The notes beneath the pieces were generated by a model. It was not told the DNA's origin. It did not search any database and was given only the letters and a program-made list of their open reading frames with translations. A stretch of 57,468 nt of DNA. It comes from Alphaproteobacteria bacterium. GTDB lineage: Bacteria; Pseudomonadota; Alphaproteobacteria; UBA7985; JAUIBT01. The DNA lies in contig JAUIDR010000019.1 of NCBI GenBank assembly GCA_030428565.1, forward strand, positions 1-57,468, given 5' to 3'. Both the position numbers and the translations under genes were made by a program. This document shows, piece after piece, positions 33,957 through 46,039 of the stretch (position 1 is the first letter of the stretch; every line of letters starts with the position of its first letter).

Positions 33957-34102
33957 GCACTGATACGTTGCGATGCGCCCTGGCGTGCTGGAGGGCGGCA
34001 CAAGCAAGAGGCCGAAGGCCGCGCGCAGGGCGAGCCAGACTTGCGCGGATGCGGCTCGCGGCCAGCCGCGCCGGGAAGCCGGATGGGAAACCGGATGGGA
34101 AA

Positions 34103-34146
34103 GCTGGCCGGGAAAGCTGGCCGGGAAAGCTGGCCGGGAAAGCTGG
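34103..34146. repeat. 13-bp tandem repeat at the end of the transporter gene
   Basis: Three perfect copies of GCTGGCCGGGAAA (34103-34141) and a partial fourth, preceded by two degenerate GGATGGGAAACC-like copies. It lies 18 bp from the stop of the convergent YeeE/YedE gene. Confidence 0.85.
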
Positions 34147-34164: not shown

Positions 34165-35220
34165 TCAGCGGCGCTTTGGGAAAAAGCGCAGCGCTAACAT
34201 GGCCCCGAAGACGATTGCAGCAAAGACGATCATTGAGCCGGTCGAGGTAAGCGACATGCCGGTGAGGCCCTGCCCCAAAGAGCAGCCCAAGGCAGCAACA
34301 CCGCCAAAGCCCATCATGACGGCCCCTAAGCCATAGCGAAGGGGGTCGGTCTCGCGGCCGAAGCCATCAAAGTATAGACGGCCGCTAACGAGCGCGGAGA
34401 CAAAGCTGCCCACCAGCGTGCCCAGCATGAGGCAGACCCCATAGTTAGGCGCGATGCTTGAAGCGATGGTGACGTACTGCAAAAGATCAGCCGCTGGGTT
34501 TGTGAAATTCATCGACTGGGGCTGCAAGATGCTGAAGCCGTCGTCGGCCAAGGCGGTGGTAATCCACCAGCCCACGGGCACCAACAAGCCGACCAACACC
34601 CCATACATCAAGTCGCGGATGTAGGCTTGCCGGCGCAAGGCGGCGGCGGCCACGATCGCAGCCAGTATTGCCAAAAGCCCCAGCGTATAGAGCGCCGACA
34701 TGTCGGAAAGCGTGGGGGCGGGGGCCTGCTGGGCGCCGACACCCTGCAACCATAGCCTTAGCGGTGACAACACGCCGGTCATGCTGGCGTAGGCGGTCAA
34801 AGAAAACAGAATGAGCACCCACAAAGAGCGCAGGTTGCCTCGGCTGGTCAAAACGGTGATGCGCGAGACACAGCCGCCCGCCAAGACCATGCCAAAACCA
34901 AACATCAGGCCCCCGATGATCAGCGAAACCGGCGCAAAGGCAGCCAGGCGTTGCAGCGCGTCTTGGGTGTTGATGAGGCTGAAATTCTCGGCCACTTGGG
35001 TGACAACAATGGCGACAATGACCGCCATCAAGAATTGGGTCGTGCGGCTGCCCGGGCGAAACATCTCGGTTCTTTTGCCGGGCGTAACCCATTCTTCGAC
35101 GGCGGCGCGCAAGCAAAATCCGCCGCGCTCAGCCGCAAATCCGAACACGGCTCCCAAGGCGAGCGCTGAGATCAAGACCCAAAAGACAGGCTCGTCGAGC
35201 GACGGCAAAATTTCAAACAT
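34165..35220 (-). CDS. soxT: YeeE/YedE-family sulfur compound transporter (SoxT-like)
   Basis: 351 residues with about nine hydrophobic segments. The family cysteine motifs are present: RGGFCLRA near the N-terminus, LAGGCVSRI in the middle and ALGCSLGQGL near the end. In the thiosulfate transporter TsuA these cysteines pass thiosulfate through the membrane. GAGGA precedes the ATG. The gene is divergent from a membrane cytochrome c, with an ATTC-N8-GAAT palindrome between them. Its place beside the sox cluster supports import of thiosulfate or a related anion. The symbol is by position and family; substrate is inferred. Confidence 0.8.
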   Translation of the reverse strand: MFEILPSLDEPVFWVLISALALGAVFGFAAERGGFCLRAAVEEWVTPGKRTEMFRPGSRTTQFLMAVIVAIVVTQVAENFSLINTQDALQRLAAFAPVSLIIGGLMFGFGMVLAGGCVSRITVLTSRGNLRSLWVLILFSLTAYASMTGVLSPLRLWLQGVGAQQAPAPTLSDMSALYTLGLLAILAAIVAAAALRRQAYIRDLMYGVLVGLLVPVGWWITTALADDGFSILQPQSMNFTNPAADLLQYVTIASSIAPNYGVCLMLGTLVGSFVSALVSGRLYFDGFGRETDPLRYGLGAVMMGFGGVAALGCSLGQGLTGMSLTSTGSMIVFAAIVFGAMLALRFFPKRR

Positions 35221-35338: not shown

Positions 35339-35354
35339 ATTCGTGAAATTGAAT
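35339..35354. promoter_or_regulatory. Putative sox operator 1 (ATTC-N8-GAAT)
   Basis: TATTC-GTGAAATT-GAATA, extended on the right by TAA. It lies between the divergent soxT and cytochrome c genes, about 52 bp before the cytochrome ATG. It shares the exact spacing with sites at 36905, 36952 and 39427. Confidence 0.7.
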
Positions 35355-35405
35355 ATAAAACGGTCCCTTAGTACGAATTCCTAGGATATGTGGAGGAAGG
35401 CTGAA

Positions 35406-36194
35406 ATGGCAAACGATAACTCACGCCCAATCATCAGTATGAATGGGATTTTGGCAGCGATTTTGCTGTTGGCGCTGCTTTTGTGGGGTTTTCGCATGAT
35501 TATCTTGCAAGACCTGGGCTTGGCTGGCCATGGCGCCCCTTCTGAGGAGCACGCCACCGCGGAGCCCGCAAGCATGGAAATGCCCGCTGAAGAGGCGGTC
35601 GCTATGACAGAAGAAAGCGCAGCTGAAGCACCCATGCAGGTCATGGAGGTTGCCGAGGCACGCGGCGATTTCCAACCCTCTGATTACCTTGTCTTCGATC
35701 AAGACGCTTATCAGCAGTTGGCTGCCGCTGGCGTGAACTGGCAGGCTGACTATCAAGCCCCAGATTTTGATGCCGCACGTTCGGTTCAACCCCTTGCTGC
35801 TACCGCCCCCGTTCAGGTCGCTGACAGCGGCGAAGGCGAAGACGGTTCCGATGGCGACGATGCAGGCGGGATCGTTGGCAATGCTGACGACGGCGAAAAG
35901 CTGGTGAAAAAGAAGTGCAAGTCTTGTCATACCTTCGACGAAGGCGGCAAGCATCGTACCGGTCCGAATCTTTGGGGCGTCGTTGGCCGCGTTTCGGGAA
36001 CTGCCGATGGTTACAAGAAGTACTCGAGCGACCTGAAGGATTGGGGCCAGGCCTGGGATGCAGAGAGCTTGGATACCTTCCTGACCAAGCCCAAGAAGAT
36101 GTTCAAGAAGACCCGCATGGCCTTCAGCGGCTTCAAGAAAGAGCAAGATCGCGCTGATGTCATCGCGTACTTGGAGAGCCTGAGCGCAGAATAA
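35406..36194 (+). CDS. Membrane-anchored cytochrome c
   Basis: 262 residues. An N-terminal membrane anchor (GILAAILLLALLLWGF, about 14-32) is followed by an acidic, Ala/Glu/Met-rich linker of about 130 residues containing EGEDGSDGDD. The C-terminal class I cytochrome c domain follows. The heme is bound by C171-K-S-C174-H175, with the axial Met probably in TRMAF near residue 238. TGGAGGAAGG precedes the ATG at 35406, so the upstream ATG at 35388 is excluded. It resembles CycM/c552-type electron carriers. In this locus it probably takes electrons from SoxAX and hands them to a terminal oxidase. The carrier role is inferred. Confidence 0.85.
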   Translation: MANDNSRPIISMNGILAAILLLALLLWGFRMIILQDLGLAGHGAPSEEHATAEPASMEMPAEEAVAMTEESAAEAPMQVMEVAEARGDFQPSDYLVFDQDAYQQLAAAGVNWQADYQAPDFDAARSVQPLAATAPVQVADSGEGEDGSDGDDAGGIVGNADDGEKLVKKKCKSCHTFDEGGKHRTGPNLWGVVGRVSGTADGYKKYSSDLKDWGQAWDAESLDTFLTKPKKMFKKTRMAFSGFKKEQDRADVIAYLESLSAE

Positions 36195-36212
36195 GCACAG
36201 CGTTCTGGATGC

Positions 36213-36249
36213 AAAAAACCCGAGAAGCAGCGCTCCTCGGGTTTTTTTT
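36213..36249. terminator. Bidirectional rho-independent terminator
   Basis: AAAAAACCCGAG (36213-36224) pairs with CTCGGGTTTTTT (36236-36247), 12 bp, and ends with eight Ts. Because the 5' arm starts with six As, it also gives a U-run on the minus strand. It would therefore terminate both the cytochrome gene and the convergent soxS. Confidence 0.9.
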
Positions 36250-36311
36250 GTTGCTGCCTGAACCCTCCAAGCGGTGGCGTTGCAGCGTCAGCTCAGCGGC
36301 AGGGGATGAGG

Positions 36312-36785
36312 TTAGTTTGCGTTGGCTTTGCCCAGATGTTTATCCAGCATGCTGTCCAGATAGCCCCAAAAGAAGCTTTCTGACAAATAGCCCTCGATGC
36401 GTGAGACCTCGACCCCATCGATGGCCAAAACAAAGCTGGGAGTAAAAGCCGTTCCTTTGACCTCAAGATCGTCAGGCAAAGGATCGTGGATGTTGACGTA
36501 ACGCAGCGCAGCGCGCTTTGCTTCTTCGGAGTTGTCGTAGGTCGAGCCAATGTCAGCCCGCCATTGTTCGCAGTATCCGCAACCGGTTTGCTCCATGACC
36601 AGCAGTTCCACACGCTTGGCCTGGGGCGAGTCAGCCAGAGCGTCACCGCCGGACAGGGGCGGCATGCTCAAAGCAGCCGCAAGCGCAAGACCTGCGAAAC
36701 CCAGCAGGCTGCGGCGCCCAAAGTTTGTTCGGGGCGCCGAGCGGAGATGCTTGGGCGTGGTGTGTTGGTCTGTGTGTCTGTTCAT
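36312..36785 (-). CDS. soxS: SoxS periplasmic thioredoxin-like protein
   Basis: 157 residues: a twin-arginine-type leader (GRRSLLGFAGLALAAALSM), then a small thioredoxin fold with C69-G-Y-C72 in MEQTGCGYCEQW and the cis-Pro-like TAFTPSFVLAI. SoxS proteins reactivate SoxY by reducing mixed disulfides. GAAGGA precedes the ATG. It is divergent from soxX, and the 350-bp gap holds two copies of the ATTC-N8-GAAT palindrome. Other DsbE/DsbC-like reductases share the fold, but the position beside soxXYZA and the short length favour SoxS. Confidence 0.85.
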   Translation of the reverse strand: MNRHTDQHTTPKHLRSAPRTNFGRRSLLGFAGLALAAALSMPPLSGGDALADSPQAKRVELLVMEQTGCGYCEQWRADIGSTYDNSEEAKRAALRYVNIHDPLPDDLEVKGTAFTPSFVLAIDGVEVSRIEGYLSESFFWGYLDSMLDKHLGKANAN

Positions 36786-36904
36786 TTACGAATCCTTCGA
36801 ACGGGGCATGGCGTTGGTTGCCGGATTGCTGCGGCCTATCTGGGCGCCTTGCAAGGGGTATTGCGACTTCTCAGGCTACATAGTGACTTTGTTGCCGGAC
36901 ATCT

Positions 36905-36920
36905 ATTCACATTGTGGAAT
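36905..36920. promoter_or_regulatory. Putative sox operator 2 (ATTC-N8-GAAT)
   Basis: TATTC-ACATTGTG-GAATA followed by TAA, matching operator 1 in both half-sites and the right-hand extension. It lies in the soxS-soxX divergent gap, 119 bp from the soxS start. Confidence 0.72.
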
Positions 36921-36951
36921 ATAAGCCCGATTTGGCAAGTTTTATCATTGT

Positions 36952-36967
36952 ATTCCTATAAACGAAT
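36952..36967. promoter_or_regulatory. Putative sox operator 3 (ATTC-N8-GAAT)
   Basis: TATTC-CTATAAAC-GAATG, 47 bp from operator 2 in the same divergent gap and 168 bp before soxX. Two sites in one gap could serve the two divergent promoters separately. Confidence 0.68.
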
Positions 36968-37135
36968 GTGCTAACTTACATGTGTTAATTGAAGCAACCC
37001 TATCACCTAAAAGTGAACTCATGCCCTTGGTGGGTGTGGCGAAGGATGGGCGGGCGCTTGTCTGGGGCTAAGGCGTAGGTGGGGCGCTTTCAAAGCAAAT
37101 AACGAACGTAACCAACGCATGCGGGAGGAGAACGC

Positions 37136-37588
37136 GTGAAAACTCTTATCACAGCGCTAGTAGTGGTGGCGTCTTTTACGGTTTCGGCGTGGGCACAAGA
37201 TATGGCCTATGTTGTCAACGAAGACGATTTTACCATTGAAGAATCGCTTACTGGTACTCCGGGCGACGCAGCGGCGGGCGAAAAATCATTCGTCGGGCGC
37301 AAAAAAGGCAACTGCTTGGCTTGCCACGCCGTCGACCAGCTCAAGAATAGCCAGCAGTTCCACGGTGAAGTGGGGCCGGATCTGAGTGATATCGGCAGCG
37401 TTTACAATGCAGCGGAGCTTCGTCTGCGCATTGTTAACTATAAGGTGTTGAACGAGGATGTGATTATGCCGGCTTTCTATAAGTCGACGGGTTTCTCACG
37501 CACCAAATCAGATTTCGAAGGTAAGTCTATTCTGTCGGCTCAAGAAGTCGAAGATGTCATTGCTTATCTTTTGACTCTGAAGTCGTAA
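37136..37588 (+). CDS. soxX: SoxX, monoheme cytochrome c subunit of SoxAX
   Basis: 150 residues with a Sec signal peptide (TLITALVVVASFTVSAWAQ). The heme motif is C60-L-A-C63-H64 and the likely axial Met is M111 in VIMPAFY. SoxX pairs with SoxA and accepts electrons when thiosulfate is joined to SoxY. The start is GTG, with GCGGGAGGAG ahead. It begins a tight run soxX-Y-Z-A with gaps of 33-69 bp. The length is normal for the smaller SoxX type. Confidence 0.92.
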   Translation: MKTLITALVVVASFTVSAWAQDMAYVVNEDDFTIEESLTGTPGDAAAGEKSFVGRKKGNCLACHAVDQLKNSQQFHGEVGPDLSDIGSVYNAAELRLRIVNYKVLNEDVIMPAFYKSTGFSRTKSDFEGKSILSAQEVEDVIAYLLTLKS

Positions 37589-37621
37589 CGTACGGAAAAC
37601 AAACGAAAAGGTCTTATTGAC

Positions 37622-38074
37622 ATGAACCAAGTTTCTATTGTCTCGCGCCGTACCTTCGTGCTCGGCACAGGTGGTCTGGCGGCTTTTTTGGCGCTGCCTC
37701 AAGTGGCTGCGGCGAACGAGTGGCAGGCAGCTATGATGGAATTGGTGGGCACGTCTGAGCCCGCTGAAGGAAAAATTGATCTGGCGATGCCGGAAATCGC
37801 TGAAAACGGCAACGTGGTGCCCTTCGACATCACGGTCGATAGCCCGATGACGGACGGTGATCACGTCAAGGCAGTGCATGTTTTGGCGACTGGTAACCCG
37901 ACCCCCGGCGTTGCATCTTACATGATGTCTCCGGCCATGGGTGAAGCCAGCGTTTCTTCGCGCATGCGTCTGGGCAAGACGCAGGACGTAATCGCTGTTG
38001 CTGAGATGAGCGACGGCAGCGTCTATGGCGTTACCACCACCGTTAAAGTGACCATCGGCGGCTGCGGCGGCTAA
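37622..38074 (+). CDS. soxY: SoxY, sulfur carrier subunit
   Basis: 150 residues. The twin-arginine leader is SRRTFVLGTGGLAAF. The mature protein is an immunoglobulin-like carrier ending in VKVTIGGCGG: the Cys on the flexible GGCGG tail carries the sulfur intermediates. It is exported folded, usually together with SoxZ. It lies 33 bp after soxX and 69 bp before soxZ. The frame is complete and of the normal length. Confidence 0.95.
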   Translation: MNQVSIVSRRTFVLGTGGLAAFLALPQVAAANEWQAAMMELVGTSEPAEGKIDLAMPEIAENGNVVPFDITVDSPMTDGDHVKAVHVLATGNPTPGVASYMMSPAMGEASVSSRMRLGKTQDVIAVAEMSDGSVYGVTTTVKVTIGGCGG

Positions 38075-38143
38075 GTCTCGCGCTCGAGTCGGGGTATCCC
38101 CCCGATACGATGCAGACACGATTACTGGTAAAGGATATCTATC

Positions 38144-38467
38144 ATGGCAGCTAAGCCACGCGTAAAAGCCCCCAAAAAAGCAGAGGCGGGCGAAATCGTT
38201 ACCATCAAGACCCTGGTTCGTCACCATATGGAGACCGGCCAGCGCAAGGACAAAGACGGTAACAAAATTCCTCGTGACATCATCCACACCTTCGTGTGCA
38301 CGGTGAACGGCAAAGAAGCGCTACGCTCTAAGTGGGAAGGCGCGGTCTCTGCGAACCCCTATTTGGCGTTTCCTTTGAAAATCATGGAAACATCTGAGGT
38401 CGTCTTTAGCTGGACCGATGATCAGGGTGAGACCGTGAGTACCACCAAAACCATTACTGTGGCCTAA
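38144..38467 (+). CDS. soxZ: SoxZ, partner of SoxY
   Basis: 107 residues with the SoxZ core IVTIKTLVRHHMETGQRKD, then PRDIIHTFVCTVNG and SANPYLAFPLKI. It has no signal peptide, as expected, because it is exported bound to Tat-translocated SoxY. The 60-bp gap to soxA holds a GC-rich hairpin. Length and motifs match the family well. Confidence 0.95.
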   Translation: MAAKPRVKAPKKAEAGEIVTIKTLVRHHMETGQRKDKDGNKIPRDIIHTFVCTVNGKEALRSKWEGAVSANPYLAFPLKIMETSEVVFSWTDDQGETVSTTKTITVA

Positions 38468-38474
38468 GCCCAGG

Positions 38475-38498
38475 GGAGGGGGAGATCGTTTCCCCTCC
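38475..38498 (+). other. GC-rich hairpin between soxZ and soxA
   Basis: GGAGGGG (38475-38481) pairs with CCCCTCC (38492-38498) around a 10-nt loop. No U-run follows, so it is more likely an mRNA stability or processing element within the operon than a terminator. Confidence 0.55.
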
Positions 38499-38526
38499 AA
38501 AACAAACCAAAAGGGAGGAATGGGAG

Positions 38527-39357
38527 ATGAAACTCTTTCTAATTGGGTTGGCGACTATGGCTGTTACGGCCACTGCGGCACAGGCCCAAGACATCGACTG
38601 GACACAAGTGACGCTCGACGGCTACGAAGTGCCCCTGGCCTATGAGAACGACGAGGGCGAAGTCATTCGTTCGGGTTACACGTTCCGCACCAAAGGCACT
38701 CAGGCTATGCAGGCTGACGACTTTGAGAACCCCGCGATGTGGCGCGTTGACGAAGGCGAAGTCGCCTGGGCGACGCCAGCAGGTAGCGAAGGCAAATCCT
38801 GCGCCGACTGTCACGGTGATGCCGCTGAGTCAATGGCGACCACCGGTACTGAGTTCCCAAAGGTTAACGCCGACGGTGAGCTGCTGGGCCTTGAGCATCA
38901 GATCAACAAATGCCGCACCGAACAAATGGGCGCTGAAGCATTTAAATGGGAATCGCAGGATATGTTGACCATGACGGTCTACGTGCGTCACCAATCGCGC
39001 GGTAAGCCGGTCAATGTTCAGATTGATGGACCCGCTGCAGAGCACTACGCCAAGGGCGAAGAGCTTTACAACAAGCGTATCGGTCAATTGGATATGGCGT
39101 GTAAGCACTGCCACCAGGATTACTATGGCAATTACATCCGCGCCGATTTCCTGAGCCAAGGCCAGTCCAATGGCTTCCCGACCTATCGCCAAAAGTGGGG
39201 TAAGGTCGGCTCGATCCACCGCCGGATTCGGGGCTGTATGGATAACATTCGCGCCAAGAAATATCCCTACGGTTCGTACGAAAATACCGTTCTTGAGTTG
39301 TATCTTGCGAACCGAGGCAAAGGGCTGCCGGTAGAGACGCCGGCTGTGCGAAACTAG
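38527..39357 (+). CDS. soxA: SoxA, diheme cytochrome c
   Basis: 276 residues with a Sec signal peptide (LFLIGLATMAVTATAAQA). Two heme motifs are present, C92-A-D-C-H96 and C192-K-H-C-H196, so this is the diheme type. C237 in RRIRGCMDN is the family's active-site heme ligand (cysteine persulfide). C129 in INKCR matches the usual ligand to the first heme. SoxAX joins thiosulfate to SoxY. AAGGGAGGAATGGGAG precedes the ATG. A strong terminator follows it, separating soxA from soxB. Confidence 0.95.
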   Translation: MKLFLIGLATMAVTATAAQAQDIDWTQVTLDGYEVPLAYENDEGEVIRSGYTFRTKGTQAMQADDFENPAMWRVDEGEVAWATPAGSEGKSCADCHGDAAESMATTGTEFPKVNADGELLGLEHQINKCRTEQMGAEAFKWESQDMLTMTVYVRHQSRGKPVNVQIDGPAAEHYAKGEELYNKRIGQLDMACKHCHQDYYGNYIRADFLSQGQSNGFPTYRQKWGKVGSIHRRIRGCMDNIRAKKYPYGSYENTVLELYLANRGKGLPVETPAVRN

Positions 39358-39382
39358 AGCTGCGGCTCGATCAAAAAAGAAG

Positions 39383-39411
39383 GCGGGGCGTGCGATGCCC
39401 CGCTTTTTTTC
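39383..39411 (+). terminator. Rho-independent terminator after soxA
   Basis: GCGGGGC (39383-39389) and GCCCCGC (39397-39403) form a perfect 7-bp stem with a 7-nt loop, followed by seven Ts. It would end the soxXYZA transcript, so soxB needs its own promoter. Confidence 0.92.
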
Positions 39412-39426
39412 TCCCAATTTTTGAAC

Positions 39427-39442
39427 ATTCGAAGTACGGAAT
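39427..39442. promoter_or_regulatory. Putative sox operator 4 (ATTC-N8-GAAT)
   Basis: CATTC-GAAGTACG-GAATA, in the 40 bp between the soxA terminator and the soxB ATG (39451). Its closeness to the start codon would let a bound repressor block the promoter or the initiation region. Confidence 0.65.
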
Positions 39443-39450
39443 ATTGAGCG

Positions 39451-41133
39451 ATGTTTGAACGCCGAGAGTTTATGCAATTGGCCCTGGCGACCGCCGCCAT
39501 GACCGGTTTGCCCAACCTCACACGCGCCGCTGCGCACCAGTCAATTACCCAGGACGATATCCTGTCGTTTGAGGCCAAAGGTCAGGTCACATTGATGAAC
39601 CTGACGGACATCCATGCGCAAATCGTTCCGGTTTATTTCCGCGAGCCCTCGATCAATCTTGGTGTTGGTGAGGTGCTTGGGCTGCCGCCACACCTGACCG
39701 GCAAGGACTTTTTGGCTCACTACGGGATCAAGGCACAATCGCCGGAATCCTACATGTTGACCAGCGCTGACTTCGAAGCCATGGCGCGCAGCTATGGCCG
39801 GGCGGGCGGCCTGGATCGCATCGCGACCTTAGTGCGTGCTATTCGCGCTGAACGCGGCGATGATCGCTGTCTGCTGTTGGATGGCGGTGATACCTGGCAC
39901 GGCTCCTATACTGCGCTGAAGACGCGCGGTCAGGACATGGTGGACCTGATGAACCTGATGAAGGTCGATGCTATGACGGGGCACTGGGAATTCACGCTTG
40001 GTGATGAACGTGTGTTGGAGCTGGTCGACGCCTTTGATGGGGACTTCCTGGCGCAAAATGTGCGCGATAACGAGTGGGACGAAGAAGTCTTCGAACACAC
40101 TTCGTTCTATGAGAAGGGTGGTGTCAAAATCGCGGTCGTGGGGCAAGCTTTCCCTTACACGCCGGTGGCCAATCCCCGCTATATGATTCCGTCTTGGTCG
40201 TTCGGCATCCGCGAATCCTTGGTGCAAGAGCGCATTGATGCCGCCCGCGACGCCGGCGCCGAGTTGGTGGTGCTGCTGTCACACAACGGCTTTGACGTGG
40301 ATCGCAAGCTCGCCAGCCGCCTGACAGGCTTGGACATTTTGATGACGGGCCACACCCATGACGCCATTCCTCAGCCCGAAATTATCGGCAATACGCTGAT
40401 GATCGCGTCGGGCTCGAGCGGTAAGTTTCTGTCGCGCTTAGACGTAAAGGTCGAGGGTGGACGGATGGTCGATTATTCCTACAAGCTCATGCCGATCTTG
40501 AGCGATGTGATCGCCCCCGACCCAGAAATGGCGGCCGCCGTGCAAGAGGTGCGCGCGCCGTACGAGAGTATGTTGAACACCTCGTTGGCGACGACTCAGT
40601 CGCTCTTGTATCGTCGCGGTAACTTCAACGGTACGTTCGACGATCTGCTCTGCCAGGGTATGCTGGAACAGCGCGACGCTGAAATCGCCCTGTCTCCTGG
40701 CTTCCGTTGGGGCTCCAGCCTGCTGCCGGGCATGGAAATCACCAACGACGACCTGTTCAACCAGACCTCTATGACCTATCCTGAGGTCTATCGTCTGGAG
40801 TTTACCGGTCAGCAACTCAAAGACATCCTGGAAGATGTGGCCGACAACCTGTTCAATCCCGATCCTTACTTCCAGCAGGGCGGCGATATGGTGCGCGTTG
40901 GCGGTATGGGCTATACGATTGACGTCAACAAGACGATCGGCAACCGCATTACCGACATGACCTTGAGCGATGGTTCGCCGCTGGACCCCGCGCGCTCCTA
41001 TGTGGTGTCGGGTTGGGCATCGGTCAACGAAGGCACCGAGGGCCCCGCGATCTGGGATCTGATGCGTGATTACTTCGCCGATCACCCACAGGTCGACATT
41101 CCGGTCAACGATTCGGTGAAAGTTATTTCATAG
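39451..41133 (+). CDS. soxB: SoxB, thiosulfohydrolase
   Basis: 560 residues, typical of SoxB. A twin-arginine-like leader (RREFMQLALATAAMTGLP) is followed by the calcineurin-like metallophosphoesterase domain: LTDIHAQI, DGGDTWHGS, TGHWEFTLG, LLSHNGFDVDRK and TGHTHDAIPQP supply the dimanganese ligands. The C-terminal 5'-nucleotidase domain includes PGFRWGSSLLPG and EVYRLEFTGQQLKDILED. It hydrolyses the terminal sulfonate of SoxY-bound thiosulfate. The gene follows its own operator and terminator arrangement, so it is likely transcribed separately from soxXYZA. Confidence 0.96.
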   Translation: MFERREFMQLALATAAMTGLPNLTRAAAHQSITQDDILSFEAKGQVTLMNLTDIHAQIVPVYFREPSINLGVGEVLGLPPHLTGKDFLAHYGIKAQSPESYMLTSADFEAMARSYGRAGGLDRIATLVRAIRAERGDDRCLLLDGGDTWHGSYTALKTRGQDMVDLMNLMKVDAMTGHWEFTLGDERVLELVDAFDGDFLAQNVRDNEWDEEVFEHTSFYEKGGVKIAVVGQAFPYTPVANPRYMIPSWSFGIRESLVQERIDAARDAGAELVVLLSHNGFDVDRKLASRLTGLDILMTGHTHDAIPQPEIIGNTLMIASGSSGKFLSRLDVKVEGGRMVDYSYKLMPILSDVIAPDPEMAAAVQEVRAPYESMLNTSLATTQSLLYRRGNFNGTFDDLLCQGMLEQRDAEIALSPGFRWGSSLLPGMEITNDDLFNQTSMTYPEVYRLEFTGQQLKDILEDVADNLFNPDPYFQQGGDMVRVGGMGYTIDVNKTIGNRITDMTLSDGSPLDPARSYVVSGWASVNEGTEGPAIWDLMRDYFADHPQVDIPVNDSVKVIS

Positions 41134-43522: not shown

Positions 43523-44119
43523 AACGGGCCACTCTGTCCTGAACCCGCGATGACAGAGAGCCTGGCCCTGCTGGTTCATCGGTGGGCAGGGCCGGTGTCC
43601 TGCGCAAGTGTCCTCCACCAGTGTTTGGCCTTGATTCGCGGGCCTATTTGCCTGGGCCCGATGCGTGGGCCCGATTTTCGAGCTCGTTTGCTGGCGATGC
43701 GCGCATGCATGGTGCTTCGGCGCCGGTTTCAAAGGCCCGGACACGCTGGCTTTAGCGGTCTGGGTTTTGTCCTATCTGGGTTTTGTCCTATCTGGGTTTT
43801 GTCCTATCTGGGTTTTGTCCTATCTGGGTCTTATCCTATCTGGGCCTATTTGCCGGGGCCTATTTGCCGGGGCCTAAATGTGAGGGCCTCGCAGTCCGCA
43901 CGACGACGGCCGATATCGCCCGCGTGGTTTGCGTCGCCCCGGTGGGCCGCCCAGCGGGGGCAACCTTGGCGTGCAAAGCTTGCACAAGCCACCTTGAAAC
44001 TTCCGATTTTCAATCTCAAAGCTGCCTCAGTCCAAGCCGAATTTGCTAAGGCCTCAATAGATTAGGGGCGCTGTCGGATTTGCCGGCGGTCAAAAGAATT
44101 TATAGTTAAGGTATTTCAG
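43523..44119. other. Non-coding stretch with tandem repeats
   Basis: About 600 bp between the GlcG-like gene and the MipA/OmpV gene. It contains the 16-bp array at 43759-43838, then two copies of CCTATTTGCCGGGG at about 43845-43873. Earlier, GGGCC-rich runs occur near 43640-43675. Frames through the arrays are repeat translations. I see no gene. Confidence 0.55.
43759..43838. repeat. 16-bp minisatellite
   Basis: Four perfect copies of TCTGGGTTTTGTCCTA and one variant (TCTGGGTCTTATCCTA). The unit is less GC-rich than the other arrays in the window. Confidence 0.9.
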
Positions 44120-45673: not shown

Positions 45674-45744
45674 CGGCGCGGCCTGCCTAAGACTTGTTTC
45701 AAAAAAAGGGCTTGAACCGCATGACGCGCGGCGCGAGCCCTTTT

Positions 45745-45912
45745 CGCGTGGCAGGGGTATTGCTGCGCGTGGCAGGGGTATTGCTGCGCGTGGCAGGGGT
45801 ATTGCTGCGCGTGGCAGGGGTATTGCTGCGCGTGGCAGGGGTATTGCTGCGCGTGGCAGGGGTATTGCTGCGCGTGGCAGGGGTATTGCTGCGCGTGGCA
45901 GGGGCTTTGCTG
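45745..45912. repeat. 21-bp minisatellite
   Basis: Eight head-to-tail copies of CGCGTGGCAGGGGTATTGCTG, the last with one change block (GGGGCTTTGCTG). It lies between the MipA/OmpV gene and the S9 peptidase. On the plus strand it would encode RVAGVLL repeats and on the minus strand QYPCHAQ repeats, but no gene-like start precedes it. Confidence 0.93.
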
Positions 45913-46039
45913 CATGCCGCAGCGGTCAAGGATAAGCGCGGCGACGAAGAAACCGGGCATAAGCCCTTGCATCGACGTCGTAATCTGCGAGGTTCCAAGC
46001 AGGCTGGCACACCATGACCAGCCAGCGCAGAGAGGACTT

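Follow-up and report, generated by a model that had tools for sequence, protein, structure and literature searches.

Palindromes in the sox cluster

The 57,468-nt stretch of an alphaproteobacterial genome analysed here (hereafter the window) carries a cluster of sox genes whose intergenic regions contain copies of the palindrome ATTC-N8-GAAT. On the minus strand lies a soxT-like gene for a YeeE/YedE sulfur transporter (34165-35220; PF04143, 8.5e-54), and divergent from it on the plus strand a c-type cytochrome gene (35388-36194; PF00034, 2.9e-12), which may instead start further on, at 35406. A minus-strand gene (36312-36785) encodes a soxS-like thioredoxin-fold protein with a CGYC motif, whose match to PF13098 (3.1e-4) falls under the curated cut-off. 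It is followed on the plus strand by soxX (37136-37588; TIGR04485), soxY (37622-38074; TIGR04488), soxZ (38144-38467; TIGR04490), soxA (38527-39357; TIGR04484) and soxB (39451-41133; TIGR04486), all of which score above the respective cut-offs.

A pattern scan of the window returned exactly four matches to ATTC-N8-GAAT, all in DNA between coding regions, just where an earlier reading made from the sequence alone (the sequence-only reading) had placed them. We refer to these unstranded sites as candidate SoxR/SqrR-type operators 1 to 4. Operator 1 (35339-35354; ATTCGTGAAATTGAAT) lies between the divergent soxT and cytochrome c genes. Operators 2 (36905-36920; ATTCACATTGTGGAAT) and 3 (36952-36967; ATTCCTATAAACGAAT) share the divergent soxS/soxX region at a start-to-start distance of 47 bp. 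Operator 4 (39427-39442; ATTCGAAGTACGGAAT) is found between soxA and soxB, with its 3' end 8 bp from the soxB start codon (ATG). The TATTC left flank and GAATA right flank, each said to be shared by three of the four, are indeed so distributed.

Four copies are more than chance predicts. The sequence-only reading had put the chance rate at about one per 57 kb, a fair estimate given a mean of 0.81 in shuffled windows, of which one in 100 reached four, though the real genome is sparser: its 18 other copies in 3.5 Mb amount to 0.3 per 57 kb, or 0.02 expected per 4.1 kb. The Poisson probability of four sites in 4.1 kb is about 8e-9, and about 7e-6 once corrected for how many such stretches the genome holds. 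The same four places were recovered by a matrix whose training sites all came from outside the window's sox cluster and its orthologues. It scored operator 1 highest in the window (24.8), then operators 3 (22.7), 4 (18.9) and 2 (17.0), while the fifth-best place in the 57 kb scored 10.1. The symmetrised site consensus extends to about T-A-Y-ATTC-R.

In a scan for sigma-70-like promoters, operator 3 overlapped a minus-strand promoter-like sequence, TTAGCA-16-TACAAT, directed at soxS. By eye only, the right arm was seen to continue at most sites into TATNNN, a candidate -10 element. After soxA and just upstream of operator 4 is a terminator-like hairpin with a T run (39376-39410, plus strand; minimum free energy -23.5 kcal/mol, z -3.96). 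This hairpin is strong, and soxB is therefore likely to be transcribed from a promoter of its own; operator 4 is placed between the hairpin and the soxB start codon. A leaderless soxB transcript was also considered, though for this the distance from a -10 element in the right arm to the ATG is a poor fit.

Copies elsewhere in the genome and in other sox loci

The exact motif occurs 22 times in the source genome (G000) against ten matches to a reversed-pattern control; the corresponding counts are 21 and 6, and 25 and 5, in two genomes of the same genus (G001 and G002). Twelve of the 22 copies likely form a regulon, and about ten resemble background. Besides the four in the window, the regulon-like sites are found at soxC/soxR, at a gene pair for a Blh-type dioxygenase and a YeeE protein (two sites), and at a second YeeE gene, tsoY, pntA, petA/trmL and an M20 hydrolase gene. 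The claim that the palindrome occurs only in sox intergenic regions thus stands for the window but not genome-wide, given that eight more regulon-like copies stand at other genes, besides ten background-like ones. The sequence-only reading had proposed asking whether matches across the genome cluster near sox; they gather at sulfur genes. Of the extended form TATTC-N8-GAATA there are six exact copies, all intergenic, and five lie beside sulfur-type genes (soxT/cytochrome, soxS/soxX, soxC/soxR, a pmpA-like YeeE/YedE gene and a TsoY-family gene), the sixth preceding pntA. The pmpA site ends 6 bp ahead of the pmpA ATG. No tsoY homologue was found in either same-genus relative, and a literature search for TsoY gave unrelated matches only.

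Regulon-like sites were retained at ten of ten testable positions in G001 and ten of 11 in G002; the pntA site was lost in G002, and the soxT region runs past the contig end in G001. Operators 2 and 4 are present in both relatives. Operator 1 is present in G002 with all eight arm bases and three of eight spacer bases. In alignments with the relatives generally, both arms are kept while two to eight of the eight spacer bases are kept and flank identity falls to about 36%. Retention is in place except near the second YeeE gene, where the G002 site is shifted by a few bases. Only one of the ten background-like copies is retained in the relatives, inside the lon coding sequence. An apparently retained rpoC site was rejected, as the match lies at a different place.

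The petA/trmL site (G000:C73:102880-102895; L214:2581-2596) overlaps the trmL start codon upstream of the petABC (bc1) operon and is kept in all three genus genomes; none of 26 further genomes outside the genus has a site upstream of petA, a single G039 match being on the other side. The site at G000:C48:89230-89245 (L213:2531-2546) lies between a small DUF1476-like gene and the M20 hydrolase gene, and both relatives keep its arms and two of eight spacer bases. The M20 hydrolase has no obvious link to sulfur.

To extend the comparison beyond the genus, 80 sox loci were retrieved by their SoxB, blind to the motif: 48 of alphaproteobacterial type, counting those from Granulosicoccus metagenome-assembled genomes (MAGs), and 32 others of beta/gamma type. 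The 48 contained 35 matches with a spacer of eight, compared with 4-18 for every other spacer from 2 to 15. Between or near their sox genes, eight was the sole enriched spacing, with 26 matches versus 1-5 at other spacings. Upstream of soxX, the spacer-8 motif was present in 12 of 37 loci, any other spacer in 0-2. The 32 beta/gamma-type loci showed no spacer-8 peak and no site before soxX. In the closest loci, L029 and L030 (SoxB 94% and 89% identical), both soxX sites are found at the identical 47-bp distance and the soxB site is kept; these two loci seem to be identical with the G001 and G002 records, having the same site sequences, and were counted once.

Four Granulosicoccus MAG loci (L031, L032, L037 and L079), labelled gammaproteobacterial, encode SoxB proteins 60-64% identical to that of the window and have the same site before soxX. 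This suggests that the cluster was transferred together with its control site, or that the MAGs are mislabelled.

The candidate regulator and its cysteines

The sequence-only reading had proposed looking for an ArsR-type soxR elsewhere in the genome, and one was found. A PF01022 search of the genome gave seven ArsR/HTH_5 matches, one of which is of the SoxR/SqrR kind: a 119-aa protein encoded at G000:C27:42779-43135, on another contig than the window and divergent from soxC (TIGR04555). The soxC/soxR intergenic region contains one copy of the motif, conserved in three genomes. The protein has an ArsR winged helix (NF033788, above cut-off) with a typical recognition helix, RQSLVSQHLTRLR, and its nearest solved relatives in a PDB comparison are YgaV, HlyU and SqrR. 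No second good SoxR-like match exists in the genome, the one other match being weak (E 4.5e-4); a missed paralogue is unlikely because the assembly is 99.2% complete. The remaining six ArsR-type proteins belong to different types, among them a methyltransferase fusion, a frame joined to a CysD-like domain and a MarR-like protein. The CysD-like case (G000:C68:81700-81840; L016) is a 390-codon open frame that combines an ArsR-type DNA-binding domain with a domain that, judged by eye alone, is CysD-like (sulfate adenylyltransferase).

Several findings weigh against the assignment of this protein to the four sites. It falls well short of the NCBIfam equivalog cut-off for BigR (66.4 vs 155 bits), a model that covers BigR proper. 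In alphaproteobacterial-type loci, 25 of 37 soxX upstream regions are without an exact site, so an exact copy is not a requirement. Promoter matches are weak, and only at operator 3 is there a clear overlap in a sensible direction. The retention test is biased, as the relatives' regions were picked by motif presence; the sox loci, picked by SoxB, are exempt. The canonical second sensing cysteine (alpha5, at +66 from the first, equivalent to SoxR Cys116) is absent, with Met114 in its place. Separately, the 3-kb neighbourhoods of 52 SqrR/SoxR homologues showed no spacer-8 enrichment (three matches, similar to other spacers), and autoregulation through the exact motif is therefore not a general feature.

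The placement of the regulator's cysteines is unusual. The first sensing cysteine (alpha2, equivalent to SoxR Cys50) is present as Cys48, and Met114 is flanked by Cys110 (+62) and Cys117 (+69). The cysteines are conserved in all three genus genomes, and position +66 is Leu in the two relatives. Among 75 sampled homologues, 53 have both canonical cysteines, 11 only that of alpha2 and 11 neither, so that the alpha5 cysteine occurs in 53 of the 64 with the alpha2 one. The i, i+4, i+7 spacing of positions 110, 114 and 117 would put them on one face of the helix. By all signs in its sequence the protein is predicted to be SoxR/SqrR-like in DNA recognition, and it departs from the strict two-cysteine sensors at one feature. 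We tentatively suggest, with slightly less than even confidence, that sulfur sensing has been rewired in this genus's repressor, the alpha5 signature LYxxFC having become LCTHYMDNC. Cys48 would then have Cys110 or Cys117 as its partner, each roughly one helix turn from the canonical position, one on either side; alternatively, Cys110 and Cys117 would together form a different switch. The regulon would also have grown beyond sulfur genes to take in the cytochrome bc1 operon and, in two species out of three, the transhydrogenase.

Departures from the canonical pair were also seen elsewhere. Seven SqrR-like homologues from other alphaproteobacteria (L229, L236, L238, L243, L246, L247 and L250) keep the alpha2 cysteine and have lost the alpha5 one. 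In nine Rhodobacteraceae loci from Roseibaca, Roseinatronobacter, Natronohydrobacter and related organisms (L056, L060, L062, L064, L065, L066, L067, L073 and L074), the SoxR homologue encoded next to soxS/soxT carries Tyr where the alpha2 cysteine would be and Arg in place of the alpha5 one. Three of these (L062, L073 and L074) keep ATTC-N8-GAAT before soxX though the homologue has neither canonical cysteine.

Tandem repeats were observed at three places in the window: copies of about 13 bases directly downstream of soxT (34085-34145; GGGAAAGCTGGCC), short repeats downstream of an HbpS-like gene with open frames reading YLGFVLSGFCPIW (43760-43850), and an intergenic repeat with several frames open (45740-45930; RVAGVLL repeats in one frame and RGIAARG in another).

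A probable sulfur-responsive repressor and its known relatives

We consider it very probable that the four palindromes are operators of one dimeric ArsR repressor of the SoxR/SqrR kind, the one encoded beside soxC. The sequence-only reading had likewise assigned all four promoters to one repressor; on sequence evidence this is well supported, though the regulon appears wider than sox and the regulator's cysteines do not match the canonical pair. That AT-rich intergenic DNA merely yields functionless copies of the motif is a highly improbable alternative. One shuffle in 100 does reach four copies, and of the 22 copies in the genome some ten resemble background, but the idea is already contradicted by the spacer-8 specificity in many lineages, by the conservation of the arms against drifting flanks and by the gap in rank under the independent matrix. 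Binding by another factor, either a different ArsR paralogue or an unrelated regulator with sulfur genes among its targets, seems improbable too, if less extremely so. The genome does encode six other ArsR/HTH_5 proteins; these are of different types, however, with a single weak second match to the SoxR-like protein, and the motif is that of SqrR, with a conserved copy in the soxC/soxR intergenic region.

It is also unlikely, though the least so of the three, that the SoxR-like protein binds at sites which, at least ahead of soxB and pmpA, act as roadblocks or activator sites instead of simple promoter operators. The close approach of operator 4 to the soxB ATG, after the terminator-like hairpin, and of the pmpA site to its own start codon would suit such a role. 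The characterised SoxR, sHdrR, SqrR and YgaV are nevertheless repressors, and soxB could equally well have an autonomous promoter lying between the hairpin and the ATG.

With the SoxR-like protein as a simple repressor, a dimer would bind each ATTC-N8-GAAT, mostly at or adjoining promoters, and in the absence of sulfane sulfur would block transcription of soxT and the cytochrome c gene, soxS, soxXYZA and soxB. Oxidation of thiosulfate or sulfide would raise sulfane sulfur, the repressor cysteines would become bridged by sulfur atoms, and the bridged repressor would leave the DNA, turning the sox genes on. Further targets of this repressor are probably soxC, the gene of the repressor itself, the Blh-type persulfide dioxygenase and its YeeE/YedE transporter, the other YeeE transporter and a small number of electron-transfer genes. 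This would provide a testable sox regulon in an alphaproteobacterial genus. In many alphaproteobacteria the motif with exactly eight spacer bases is a mark of sox control regions, connecting the Rhodobacter capsulatus SqrR site with SoxR-controlled sox clusters. Motif, regulator type and target class were already known; the parts worth following are the shifted cysteines, a natural variant for probing the freedom of the sulfur-bridge sensor, and the lineage-specific petABC/trmL and pntA sites.

SqrR, SoxR, BigR and YgaV are all ArsR-type repressors responsive to sulfide or sulfane sulfur. The recognition site deduced for R. capsulatus SqrR is ATTC-N8-GAAT, and the footprint of Escherichia coli YgaV on its own promoter contains a similar sequence (PMC9774250). 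In the literature consulted, the documented consensus is that of SqrR and not of the Paracoccus or Pseudaminobacter SoxR that the sequence-only reading had named. Our candidate resembles SqrR in the core palindrome and spacing, in aligning without gaps to SqrR structures over residues 17-100 and in its alpha2 cysteine, and differs in the position of the alpha5 cysteine. The SoxR and sHdrR of Hyphomicrobium denitrificans repress sox and sulfane-sulfur genes by binding intergenic regions (PMC10451225, PMC12423496). This SoxR no longer binds DNA once sulfur atoms link two of its cysteines, and it shifts the soxXA-soxYZB intergenic region in two bands (PMC10451225), as expected of paired sites; the portion of text searched gave no base sequence for its site. 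Its Cys50 and Cys116 are 66 residues apart, whereas the protein described here has Met at +66 from Cys48. BigR of Xylella and Agrobacterium is a sulfide-responsive ArsR-type repressor of the Blh sulfur transferase/dioxygenase (PMC5823870). The motif at the Blh-like dioxygenase gene here is a shared trait, and the regulator differs in falling below the BigR equivalog cut-off. Like the SoxR proteins of Paracoccus pantotrophus and Pseudaminobacter salicylatoxidans, it would be an ArsR-type repressor of sox operons. SoxR reportedly binds cooperatively, to go by the title of a 2007 report by Mandal (cited in PMC10451225). In those two organisms soxR is grouped with soxS and other sox genes; here, by contrast, it is located on another contig, beside soxC.

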